A stretch of 64,000 nucleotides of DNA from Cupriavidus respiraculi (GTDB lineage: Bacteria > Pseudomonadota > Gammaproteobacteria > Burkholderiales > Burkholderiaceae), in NCBI RefSeq assembly GCF_914271545.1, contig NZ_CAJZAH010000002.1, positions 682,001 to 746,000 of the forward strand, given 5' to 3'. The translations under genes were made by a program, and so were the position numbers. Positions 25,948-30,783 of this stretch are shown piece after piece (the stretch's first letter is position 1; each line of letters starts with the position of its first letter). The notes below the pieces were generated by a model, which saw nothing but the letters and a program-made list of their open reading frames with translations, searched no databases and was not told the origin of the DNA.

Positions 25948-26028
25948 CATGTGCCCTCAATACCCCAGGCGTCGCCGCACCGGTCGCTGACCCGCGACGG
26001 CGCCGCCGATTCGATACAAAGGACCTCC

Positions 26029-27489
26029 ATGAACGCCGGCGAACTCGGAATTCGCAATCTCGCCACCGCACAGCAGCTGCTGCTCACGCCCTATGGGCTC
26101 GATGAAGCGAAGCTGCAGCACGTGCTGGCGGACATCTTCACGCATCGGGTCGACTACGCCGACCTGTACTTCCAGTACACCCGCAGCGAGGCCTGGAGCC
26201 TCGAGGAAGGCATCGTCAAGTCGGGCAGCTTCAATATCGACCAGGGCGTCGGCGTGCGCGCCGTCTCCGGCGACAAGACCGCCTTCGCCTATTCCGACGA
26301 CATCAGCCTCGAGGCCCTGCTCGAAGCCGGCGCCGCCACCCGCACCATCGGCCGCATCGGCAGCGGCCGCACCAAGGTGGCCGGGGCGATGGCCTCGCAG
26401 ACCGGGCGCAACCTGTACACGCCCAACGACCCGCTCGAATCGATGCCTGCGGCGGAAAAGGTGGCCCTGCTCGAGCGCGTGGAAAAGATGGCGCGCGCCA
26501 AGGACCCCCGCATCGTGCAGGTGATGGCGGGACTGGCTGGCGAATACGACGTAGTGCTCGTCGCGCGCAGCGACGGCGTGATGGCCGCCGACGTGCGCCC
26601 GCTGGTGCGCGTCTCCGTCACCGTGATCGCCGAGCAGAACGGCCGCCGGGAGATCGGCACCTCGGGCGGCGGCGGACGCTACGCCTACGGCTACTTCAGC
26701 GACGAACTGCTGCGCCAGTATGTGGACGAGGCCGTCGCCTCCGCGCTGGTCAACCTCGAGGCGCGCCCCGCCCCGGCCGGCGCGATGACCGTGGTGCTCG
26801 GCCCGGGCTGGCCCGGCGTGCTGCTGCACGAGGCGATCGGCCACGGCCTGGAAGGCGACTTCAACCGCAAGGGCTCGTCGGCCTTCGCCGGCCGGCTGGG
26901 CGAGCGCGTGGCGGCCAAGGGCGTCACCGTGGTCGACGACGGCACGCTGGCCGACCGCCGGGGCTCGCTGAACCTGGACGACGAGGGCAATCCCACCCAG
27001 TGCACCACGCTGATCGAGGACGGCATCCTGCGCGGCTATATGCAGGACACGCTCAATGCCCGCCTGATGAAGATGCCGGTCACGGGCAATGCGCGCCGCG
27101 AGAGCTACGCCGCGCTGCCGATGCCCCGCATGACCAACACTTACATGCTCAACGGCGACCGCGATCCGCAGGAGATCATTGCCAGCGTCAAGCGCGGCCT
27201 CTATGCGGTCAATTTCGGCGGCGGCCAGGTCGATATCACCAACGGCAAGTTCGTGTTCTCGGCCAGCGAGGCGTATCTGATCGAAGACGGCAAGATCACC
27301 GCGCCGGTCAAGGGCGCGACGCTGGTCGGCAACGGGCCCGAATCGCTGAAGGACGTCACCATGATCGGCAACGACATGCGCCTGGATTCCGGCGTGGGCG
27401 TGTGCGGCAAGGAAGGCCAGAGCGTGCCGGTGGGCGTCGGCCAGCCGACGCTGCGGATCGAGAACATGACGGTCGGCGGCACCGCCTGA
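26029..27489 (+). CDS. tldD: Metalloprotease TldD
   Basis: A 486-residue TldD/PmbA-family protein. The zinc-binding signature HEAIGH is at residues 267-272 ([18 protein letters not shown]). Other family motifs are [18 protein letters not shown] and the C-terminal [16 protein letters not shown]. TldD acts with PmbA (TldE) as a heterodimeric peptidase on unfolded peptides, for example microcin B17 maturation and CcdA turnover. PmbA is not in the window. ATG 26029 follows an AAAGGACC ribosome binding site; the frame upstream of this is rejected. Confidence 0.95.
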
Positions 27490-27514
27490 TGTCGCAAATG
27501 CGGGAAGCCGGCGC

Positions 27515-27543
27515 TTGCCAAGGCCGGCAAAACCCGCTATAAA
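27515..27543 (+). promoter_or_regulatory. Sigma-70 promoter of the aroG leader
   Basis: TTGCCA (27515-27520), an exact 17-nt spacer and TATAAA (27538-27543) lie just after tldD. The transcript would start near 27550 and have a leader of about 325 nt before aroG. Confidence 0.7.
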
Positions 27544-27545
27544 GT

Positions 27546-27585
27546 GGCTTCGCCAGGCGCCACCGCGTCGGCGAAGCCGGTTTTC
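27546..27585 (+). terminator. tldD terminator hairpin / 5' hairpin of aroG leader
   Basis: GGCTTCGCC (27546-27554) pairs perfectly with GGCGAAGCC (27570-27578), followed by GGTTTTCTC. It can serve as a weak intrinsic terminator for tldD. Because it begins at the predicted aroG transcription start, it could instead be a 5' stem of the aroG leader RNA. Confidence 0.55.
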
Positions 27586-27665
27586 TCCCGGTTCGGCGGC
27601 AGATTCCACTGCTGCTGTCCATGGAACACCTAGCGCAACAACGAACTTCGTACCCGCCTCGATTC

Positions 27666-27737
27666 ATGTCCGCCAAGTTTTACTTTTACTTTTTTAGCGA
27701 TCTCACACCGCTGGCGGATGGAGAGGGGCGATCGTAA
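27666..27737 (+). CDS. Phe/Tyr-rich leader peptide of aroG attenuator
   Basis: A 23-codon ORF beginning MSAK, followed by six consecutive aromatic codons (FYFYFF, 27678-27695) and ending at TAA 27735-27737. The track of aromatic codons is the hallmark of a regulatory leader peptide, as in pheL. No strong ribosome binding site is visible. Its second to fourth codons and a later GC-rich part form two of the pairing segments of the attenuator. It lies 136 bp before aroG, on the same predicted transcript. Confidence 0.75.
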   Translation: MSAKFYFYFFSDLTPLADGEGRS

Positions 27738-27787
27738 GCGCCCCCAAGATTGCAAAAAAGCCGCCAGCGACCCTGGCGGCTTTTTTT
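27670..27787 (+). promoter_or_regulatory. Four-segment transcription attenuator controlling aroG
   Basis: Segment 1 is CCGCCA (27670-27675), inside the leader ORF. Segment 2 is CGCTGGCGG (27709-27717), segment 3 CCGCCAGCG (27761-27769) and segment 4 CTGGCGGC (27773-27780). Segment 1 pairs with 2 (6 bp), 2 with 3 (9 bp perfect, antiterminator), and 3 with 4 (terminator). The Phe/Tyr codons lie in the 1:2 loop. A ribosome stalled there would free segment 2 to pair with 3 and allow aroG transcription; fluent translation through segment 2 would let the terminator form. An extra hairpin (27725-27730 with 27739-27744) covers the leader stop codon. The logic matches trp/phe-type attenuators and is inferred from sequence. 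Confidence 0.8.
27754..27787 (+). terminator. Intrinsic terminator within aroG leader
   Basis: GCCGCCAG (27760-27767) pairs with CTGGCGGC (27773-27780) across a 5-nt loop. The stem is flanked by six As and followed by seven Ts. It is a strong rho-independent terminator that would end transcription before aroG unless the antiterminator forms. Confidence 0.9.
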
Positions 27788-27801
27788 ATCGCCGTGCCCT
27801 G

Positions 27802-27833
27802 AATACCCGAACACCCGAATACCCGAATACCCG
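27802..27833 (+). repeat. Tandem 8-nt repeat, four copies
   Basis: Four contiguous octamers AAYACCCG (27802, 27810, 27818, 27826) lie between the attenuator terminator and the aroG ribosome binding site. The second copy has C for T. Slippage here would change the leader length by 8 nt. Confidence 0.85.
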
Positions 27834-27873
27834 AACCGAACAACTCAAGACCTCACAAGACCCTGGAGCCATC

Positions 27874-28953
27874 ATGCTGAAGAACACCGACGACCTGCGC
27901 ATTCGCGAACTGAAGGAATTGTTGCCGCCGGCGCACCTGATTCGCGAATTCTCCTGCTCGGAGAAAGCGTCCGACGTGATCTACGGCGCGCGCCAGGCGA
28001 TGCACCGGATCCTGCACGGCATGGACGACAGGCTGATCGTCATCATCGGCCCCTGCTCCATCCACGACACCCGCGCCGCGCTCGAGTACGCCAAGCTGCT
28101 CAAGGTGCAGCGCGACCGCTTCGCCAATGAACTGGAAGTCGTGATGCGCGTGTACTTCGAAAAGCCGCGCACCACCGTGGGCTGGAAGGGGCTGATCAAC
28201 GATCCCCATATGGACGGCAGCTTCAAGATCAACGACGGCCTGCGCACCGCCCGCGAACTGCTGCTCAACATCAGCGAAATGGGACTGCCGGCCGGCACCG
28301 AATACCTCGACATGATCAGCCCGCAGTACATCGCCGACCTGGTGAGCTGGGGCGCGATCGGCGCCCGCACGACGGAATCGCAGGTGCACCGCGAACTGGC
28401 CTCGGGTCTGTCGTGTCCGGTGGGATTCAAGAACGGCACCGACGGGAACGTCAAGATCGCGGTGGACGCCATCAAGGCCGCCTCGCAGCCCCACCACTTC
28501 CTGTCGGTGACAAAGGGCGGCCATTCGGCCATCGTCTCGACCTCCGGCAATGAAGACTGCCACCTGATCCTGCGCGGCGGCAAGGCGCCCAACTACGACG
28601 CGGCCAGCGTGCAGGAAGCCTGCGACGCGATCGCCAAGGCCGGCCTGGCCGCGAAACTGATGATCGACGCCTCGCACGCCAACAGCAGCAAGAAACACGA
28701 GAACCAGATCGGCGTCTGCGAGGACATCGGCCGGCAGCTGGCCGCAGGCGACGACCGCATCATCGGCGTGATGGTCGAATCCCACCTCGTCGCGGGCCGC
28801 CAGGACCACGTGCAGGGCATGCCCGTGGAAGACCTGACCTACGGGCAATCGGTGACGGACGCCTGCATCGGCTGGGACGACTCCGCCAAGGTGCTGGAGA
28901 CGCTGGCCAACGCGGTGAAGGCTCGCCGGATTGCCAAGGGCAGCGGGAACTGA
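27874..28953 (+). CDS. aroG: 3-deoxy-7-phosphoheptulonate (DAHP) synthase, class I
   Basis: A 359-residue AroF/G/H-type DAHP synthase that condenses phosphoenolpyruvate and erythrose-4-phosphate, the first step of the shikimate pathway. IIGPCSIHD places Cys61 exactly as in E. coli AroG. FEKPRTTVGWKGLINDPHMD, GARTTESQVHRELASGLSCP and DASHANSSKKHENQ are family blocks with the metal and substrate ligands. ATG 27874 has a GGAG ribosome binding site; the in-frame extension back to about 27718 runs through the terminator and is not plausible. Expression is probably controlled by the attenuator upstream. Whether Phe, Tyr or Trp inhibits the enzyme cannot be read reliably. Confidence 0.96.
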   Translation: MLKNTDDLRIRELKELLPPAHLIREFSCSEKASDVIYGARQAMHRILHGMDDRLIVIIGPCSIHDTRAALEYAKLLKVQRDRFANELEVVMRVYFEKPRTTVGWKGLINDPHMDGSFKINDGLRTARELLLNISEMGLPAGTEYLDMISPQYIADLVSWGAIGARTTESQVHRELASGLSCPVGFKNGTDGNVKIAVDAIKAASQPHHFLSVTKGGHSAIVSTSGNEDCHLILRGGKAPNYDAASVQEACDAIAKAGLAAKLMIDASHANSSKKHENQIGVCEDIGRQLAAGDDRIIGVMVESHLVAGRQDHVQGMPVEDLTYGQSVTDACIGWDDSAKVLETLANAVKARRIAKGSGN

Positions 28954-30467: not shown

Positions 30468-30783
30468 TTTCGTAGCTGATTGGAAGTATTAAACGCTGCG
30501 TGACCTGCCCATCCAACCAGACATGGATCTCACGGCGAGACACCGCGTCTCCGGGCGGAGCCTTCGGCCTCTGCAGGAAGCATCTCTCGTGATCGCCGGC
30601 CTCCGGAACGGCGCCGAGTGGGAACCGGGCGGCCGGGAGGAAGGCTAGACGTGGGGGCGCGTCAAACCGCCGCATTGTACAGCAGCCGGCACGTGGCAGT
30701 CCAGCGGACCGCCTCCCGCGCCCGCGAACGGAAAAGCTCTTTTATACTGGCCCATTCCCGACTCGCAAACCTCCAGGCTGCCC
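30468..30783. other. Divergent intergenic region, cytochrome c / MoxR
   Basis: This 316-bp region holds the promoters of two divergent units. Near the plus-strand gene is a TATACT hexamer (30743-30748) without a convincing -35. On the minus strand a TTAATACTT patch lies just before the cytochrome start. The rest is GC-rich with no credible ORF. Confidence 0.5.

Follow-up and report, generated by a model that had tools for sequence, protein, structure and literature searches.

A putative aromatic amino acid attenuator upstream of the DAHP synthase gene aroG in Cupriavidus respiraculi and its relatives

Ribosome-mediated attenuators can read several amino acids through a single leader, as in Escherichia coli, where the thr leader reads Thr and Ile and the ilv leader reads Ile, Val and Leu. 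The leader upstream of aroG that we describe here would likewise read several amino acids, but these belong to the aromatic family and are sensed at the first step of their common pathway. The E. coli pheL-pheA attenuator (Rfam RF01859, Phe_leader) has a Phe-rich leader peptide and a terminator, as the aroG leader does, but its target is pheA, whereas the aroG leader mixes in Tyr and often Trp codons. In the accessible text of PMC5343134, TyrR and TrpR take part in the control of the E. coli DAHP synthases, and a sequence-only reading of the present locus had offered attenuation of this enzyme as a different solution from that of E. coli.

A precedent for such a solution exists. The accessible text of PMC11802643, describing Neshat et al. 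2014, has the aroR leader (Phe-Tyr-Phe) of Corynebacterium glutamicum attenuating the operon of the DAHP synthase gene aroF, with Phe mattering and Tyr not, and the accessible text of PMC4046766 contains the prediction of this attenuator. Compared by description alone, the two systems share a Phe-Tyr-Phe leader before a DAHP synthase gene and a rise in transcription upon stalling; the C. glutamicum system differs in its phylum, in answering to the supply of Phe and not Tyr, and in that three aromatic codons are named for it. Table 7 in the accessible part of PMC1173090 takes from Merino's website putative attenuators that stand, in two Vibrio species, ahead of an operon joining a DAHP synthase gene to tyrA. 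They too are predictions upstream of a proteobacterial DAHP synthase gene, but with tyrA in the operon and in gammaproteobacteria. Finally, the attenuator RNA of trpL-trpE(G) in Sinorhizobium meliloti starts at the leader ATG (accessible text of PMC7298713), as would be the case for part of the aroG leader family, but this alphaproteobacterial system reads Trp alone and its target is trpE(G).

Here, we analyze the aroG leader region of Cupriavidus respiraculi within a 64-kb window (the whole stretch of DNA examined, 64,000 nucleotides of contig NZ_CAJZAH010000002.1) and trace it through related genomes. We hold with high confidence that a ribosome-mediated transcription attenuator controls the DAHP synthase gene aroG by sensing charged tRNA-Phe and tRNA-Tyr, and tRNA-Trp is probably sensed as well where the run of control codons holds Trp codons.

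Anatomy of the aroG leader region

The target gene, aroG (27874..28953, on the plus strand, as are all features below), encodes a class I DAHP synthase of 359 residues (PF00793). Its top NCBIfam model is NF006723 AroG (597.1 bits against a cut-off of 568), and the protein also scores above the cut-off of the AroH subfamily NF009396. It is the sole match of its kind in its own genome, and a type II DAHP synthase (PF01474) was found in none of 60 genomes of the genus. The 5' neighbor of the leader region, at 25951–27489, is a gene that, judging from its sequence, is probably tldD.

Three elements ahead of aroG had been named in the sequence-only reading, and all three stand. The sigma-70 type promoter (27515..27543) reads TTGCCA at 27515–27520, a 17-nt spacer and TATAAA at 27538–27543. 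This architecture recurs at 61 of 62 loci (60 genus genomes and two named Cupriavidus loci already represented among them), the single miss being a contig end, and 59 of the 62 carry the exact TTGCCA. Reading and translation confirm a leader ORF of 23 codons (MSAKFYFYFFSDLTPLADGEGRS plus stop, 27666..27737) with six consecutive Phe/Tyr control codons, TTT TAC TTT TAC TTT TTT, at 27678..27695. The U-tailed intrinsic terminator before aroG has a 14-bp stem (27754–27767 with 27773–27786) and Ts at 27781–27787.

Four segments of this region could pair in alternative ways. Segment 1 (27668..27675) can pair with 27712–27719, and segment 2 (27709..27717), within the leader ORF, is perfectly complementary over 9 nt to segment 3 (27761–27769), with which it would form the antiterminator. 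Segment 3 overlaps the 5' arm of the terminator at 27754–27767 (together 27754..27769), and segment 4, the 3' arm, occupies 27773..27787 together with the U-tail. The fold of 27660–27795 has a z-score of −3.85, and none of 200 shuffles folds equally well.

Dinucleotide shuffles of 27490–27873 yielded an ORF of 8–60 residues with at least six aromatic residues in eight in 0 of 5000 cases, and one reaching five in eight in 14 of 5000; a complement of at least 9 nt to the terminator arm appeared in 4 of 5000 shuffles of the leader. No second ORF with a comparable aromatic run was found on either strand of the window. A generic consensus scan of the region returned 0 promoters and 0 terminators because its rules demand a T at position 6 of the −10 hexamer and five Ts after the stem; the leader region falls outside them because its −10 box is TATAAA and its stem takes up Ts.

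Right behind the promoter, at 27546–27578, lies a strong hairpin, GGCTTCGCC/GGCGAAGCC. When 14 genus loci were folded, GCTTCG near the RNA start was kept in most, and the folds differed from the hairpin of the window. The terminated leader, 27550–27787, is a predicted small RNA of ~240 nt.

Distribution among relatives

Each of the 60 genomes drawn from Cupriavidus has an aroG orthologue, and each orthologue is preceded by a leader reading M(S/T)AKFYFYFF or a near variant; no preselection on aromatic residues was needed for this sample. None of the 30 second, paralogous aroG copies in the genus (62–64% identical) has such a leader. Among the best 80 of 592 named loci, 62 have leader and terminator, and these include Burkholderia, Paraburkholderia, Caballeronia, Trinickia, Collimonas, Massilia, Janthinobacterium, Bordetella, Achromobacter and Advenella. 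The other 18, without leader and terminator, include Thauera, Azoarcus, Rhodocyclus and Sulfuritalea (six are of Rhodocyclaceae type), one Noviherbaspirillum, one Undibacterium and one locus with only ~50 nt of upstream sequence (L059).

We searched a covariance model of the leader region, R1, in 300 genomes of the order, some of which (L208 and L023, for example) match by construction because R1 was built from the same organisms. At least 77 of the 300 genomes have a match before aroG. The aromatic codon run, whose conservation in relatives the sequence-only reading had named as support, is conserved. Among the 87 full-length matches listed, each of which was examined, 77 stand ahead of aroG and the other 10 elsewhere, and 72 of the best 73 are aroG-linked; 73 of the 77 aroG-linked matches carry at least five aromatic residues in eight and four are without a clear run. 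An AroG-type protein occurs in 223 of the 300 genomes. At 40 aroG loci from order genomes without a strong R1 match, chosen for family diversity and including one truncated locus, we found no 6-of-8 run and one TTG-start ORF that reaches five, suggesting presence or absence of the leader more than drift below detection, despite the four runless matches.

At the level of the class, 11 of 274 genomes match R1 at E ≤1e-4, five of them before aroG (the own genome, G521, G369, G108 and G152) and six elsewhere. Of 29 other best-scoring aroG loci in the class, 27 have no leader and the two that do are G108, from the same order, and G369; G369 and G521 are two leader-bearing genomes from one further family.

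The placement of these matches bears on a reading in which what is encoded between tldD and aroG is a self-terminated small RNA, the peptide being incidental and aroG being read from run-off. A terminated RNA of ~240 nt is indeed predicted, and attenuator RNAs can act in trans, for example rnTrpL of S. meliloti (accessible text of PMC7298713), but a free-standing small RNA does not account for a location before aroG in 72 of the best 73 matches and the lack of a leader before any of 30 paralogues, for aromatic residues that are kept while their codons vary synonymously, or for a segment 2 that lies inside the ORF at 85 of 85 loci, and we judge it highly improbable.

In its own genome, R1 gives 19 matches at E up to 10, of which that in the window is the only strong one (105.2 bits). 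We rejected G000:C5:135391–135538 as a second copy, as this full-model match is weak (20.2 bits, E 0.1) and has no aroG and no run above four in eight; the remaining matches, which fit the 3' half or the terminator alone, were likewise rejected as copies. No ORF with six aromatic residues in eight was found at the own-genome loci of two PF00425 chorismate-binding genes and the PDT gene, where the best ORF reaches five in eight and apparently lies inside the PDT gene. In three genomes from other families of the order (loci L266; L272 with L280:7754–8260; L259 with L281), a Phe/Tyr/Trp-rich leader of the YFYWYR/H type and a terminator precede a protein of ~157–168 residues that has no worthwhile Pfam or NCBIfam match. 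These loci are perhaps a second aromatic attenuator, with an uncharacterized target.

The aroG leader was rejected as a member of Rfam RF01859 Phe_leader (27.5 bits, E 0.023, against a gathering score of 55). No Rfam family matched at gathering scores in 20 loci, and no NCBIfam or Pfam leader family matched four leaders. We found no attenuator described before aroG in Betaproteobacteria in the literature searched, which excluded most subscription papers and may thus have missed an earlier prediction. We conclude that the aroG leader is a new attenuator family of a known type of mechanism, outside the families of Rfam, NCBIfam and Pfam.

Constraint on the leader peptide and the RNA helices

A non-redundant set of 97 leaders was obtained by requiring at least five aromatic residues in eight and removing 96 of 193 loci at a threshold of ≥90% identity. 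Six loci with no 5-of-8 run or no T-run terminator (L243, L253, L263, L268, L271 and L277) and the 18 named loci without leader and terminator were left out.

Sequence comparison places the aromatic residues of the leader under constraint. Among 80 AKF-type leaders, which were picked by the letters AKF from loci preselected for at least five aromatic residues in eight, 50 sequence-by-codon cells (sequences, not events) hold a synonymous codon different from the commonest codon of the run, and the non-synonymous changes in the run amount to a single Tyr-to-His and two Phe-to-Tyr replacements. The choice of codon is also skewed: TTT and TTC stand at 310:132 in the 97 leaders, whereas the ratio is 56:242 in the aroG genes at 46 of the loci and 4:80 in five genes of the window. 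This excess of the rarer codon, TTT, is consistent with slow decoding; alternatively, it could reflect a U-richness that holds the region unpaired.

Phe and Tyr had been read as the signal, and this fits the run in the window. As a signal for the whole family it falls short, because many relatives have Trp codons in the run: within the 97 leaders, selected as above, every run contains Phe, 92 contain Tyr and 40 contain Trp. In 12 of the 60 genus genomes, Trp is the codon directly after the run (L097, L100, L102, L103, L105, L108, L112, L118, L119, L120, L123 and L170). Ten of these 12 also carry a second aroG copy, as do 30 of the 60 overall, a count in which kinship and function are not separated.

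A run that is near-invariant in 80 leaders, though these were picked by the letters AKF, might also be expected of an arrest peptide that responds within the ribosome tunnel to a free aromatic metabolite and not to tRNA charging, as TnaC does to Trp. Arrest peptides require specific residues, however, and here the order of aromatic residues and the remaining peptide sequence differ widely among the 97 loci, while the enrichment of TTT fits slow decoding. We give an arrest peptide very little chance beside sensing of charged tRNA.

Translation of the leader would start without a Shine-Dalgarno site. None precedes the leader ATG in the stretch from the −10 box (27544..27665), and GGAG stands immediately 5' of the aroG ATG at 27874. 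The anti-SD duplex energies in the window are +0.3 kcal/mol for the leader and −5.6 for aroG, and values below −5 occur in 7 of 97 leaders, 43 of 51 aroG starts and 28% of random 20-mers. At 25 of 96 loci (the 97 less one with too little upstream sequence; 0.4 expected), among them L034, L057, L204, L223, L236 and L262, an extended −10 box ends 6–9 nt 5' of the leader ATG, so RNA there should start at the ATG or a few bases from it. This suggests that the leader mRNA is leaderless at these 25 loci. A TTGCCA-type promoter lies further upstream of the leader in Cupriavidus and at many loci of Burkholderia or Massilia type.

The four segments had been proposed to pair as 1:2, 2:3 or 3:4, with compensatory changes expected in relatives. 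All three pairings are possible in the window; across the family, covariation indicates a clear and strong constraint on 3:4 and a moderate one on 2:3, and gives helix 1:2 no support beyond composition. Alignment A1 covers 48 representatives less L008. For the terminator helix 3:4, we counted 22 cells changed on both sides, a number reached by 0 of 500 shuffles and compared with at most 12 in slid controls. For the antiterminator helix 2:3, the covariation score was matched by 1 of 500 shuffles and the 12 doubly changed cells by 4 of 500, while the count of doubly changed pairs was matched by 294 of 500; sliding one strand of the helix by one column gave 15 doubly changed cells but a lower score. 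The changes in 2:3 sit in pairs outside a near-invariant GGCGG/CCGCC core. The covariation score of helix 1:2 was matched by 59 of 500 shuffles, though 82.9% of its cells in alignment A2 are paired.

We further observed that segments 2 and 3 of the same locus pair more stably than swapped ones, at −16.45 kcal/mol compared with −15.39 (z −4.8, 0 of 20000 permutations as good), a result that, like the covariation tests, is inflated by the relatedness of the loci. Random synonymous recoding reached or exceeded the native 2:3 energy in 152 of 1000 cases in the window and in 164, 172, 193, 106, 508 (L040) and 956 (L223) of 1000 at other loci. As recoding often equals the native energy, the complementarity of 2:3 is partly a product of the peptide and its codon usage.

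The position of segment 2 was measured at 85 loci (the 97 less 12 with fewer than four segment-2 bases). It lies within the leader ORF in all 85, starting 33–38 nt (quartiles) past the first aromatic codon and ending 11–21 nt (quartiles; range 5–89) ahead of the stop, which places it immediately in front of a ribosome stalled on the run and, at many loci, beneath or directly behind one at the stop. Pairing of segment 2 with the first codons at these loci was no better than with shuffled codons (0.43 and 0.41, p = 0.71); in the window, by contrast, the values were 0.74 and 0.43.

In a folding model of the RNA before segment 4 exists, the median predicted probability of the 2:3 antiterminator over the 97 loci is 0.72 when a ribosome occupies the aromatic codons (everything 5' of the ribosome front excluded; 0.66 if the footprint alone is masked), 0.53 without a ribosome and 0.39 with a ribosome on the stop codon. 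The stalled value exceeds that without a ribosome by more than 0.2 at 48 loci and that with a ribosome on the stop at 53, and falls more than 0.2 below at none. For the window, the model gives 0.80 stalled (0.77 with the footprint mask), 0.60 without a ribosome and 0.79 with a ribosome on the stop. Given this last value, the fed state in the window can only come about if helix 1:2 forms first, or through kinetics or steric effects absent from the model.

Proposed mechanism and its meaning

Together, the anatomy of the locus, the conserved aromatic run, the constraint on 3:4 and the weaker one on 2:3, and the association with aroG bear out the attenuator first read upstream of this gene. From them we infer the transcription start, translation, stalling, termination and amino acid response as follows. 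RNA polymerase would start at ~27550 and transcribe the leader, and a ribosome would translate the 23-codon ORF. With too little charged tRNA-Phe or tRNA-Tyr, the ribosome would stall on 27678–27695 and cover segment 1. Segment 2, ~33 nt past the first aromatic codon, would then be free to pair with segment 3, no terminator would form and aroG would be transcribed.

When charged tRNAs are plentiful, the ribosome would reach the stop codon just past segment 2. Either the ribosome itself or refolding on upstream sequence would withhold segment 2 from segment 3, the terminator would form from segments 3 and 4, and transcription would stop near 27787. Because of the position of segment 2 in the ORF, we favor its occlusion by the ribosome as the shared device of the fed state and regard helix 1:2 as a lineage-specific aid; the device, helix or occlusion, may differ between lineages.

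As judged from the sequence, the locus has the features of a trp/phe/his-type attenuator: a short leader ORF in which codons for products of the pathway form a run, an antiterminator (2:3, moderate constraint) and an intrinsic terminator (3:4, strong constraint) that are mutually exclusive, and a downstream gene, aroG, in the pathway of the sensed amino acids. The aroG leader would work like the trp and phe attenuators; the helix 1:2 of that type is possible in the window but does not rise above composition across the family. That a TyrR/TrpR-kind repressor is the main control and the leader a relic would be in keeping with E. coli, whose DAHP synthases are controlled in that way (accessible text of PMC5343134), but it has next to no likelihood here: allowing three mismatches to the box consensus, we found no site resembling a TyrR box near aroG, the one match in the 64 kb lies at 30729 (1.15 expected under the same limits), and a relic would not retain residues and helices across families.

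It is very probable, reading from sequence to physiology, that C. respiraculi and many of its relatives make DAHP synthase mainly when Phe or Tyr is short. We put at about even the broader proposition that Betaproteobacteria hold a widespread and previously undescribed attenuator family acting as a pan-aromatic OR gate (Phe, Tyr and, in many lineages, Trp) at the entry to the shikimate pathway, built on one leader peptide that has no Shine-Dalgarno site, is often leaderless and has had its Trp input gained and lost among lineages.

Amino acid attenuators have been suggested to have originated in gammaproteobacteria, with few transfers (accessible text of PMC3766115), and the widespread aroG leader sits uneasily with that suggestion. 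The attenuator offers a testable account of how soil, plant-associated and industrial bacteria may control entry to aromatic synthesis. Cupriavidus serves as a production host, and removal or use of the attenuator could matter for aromatic products made there. The natural series of leaders, with differing sets of aromatic codons on one gene, would also allow the contribution of each codon to be measured.
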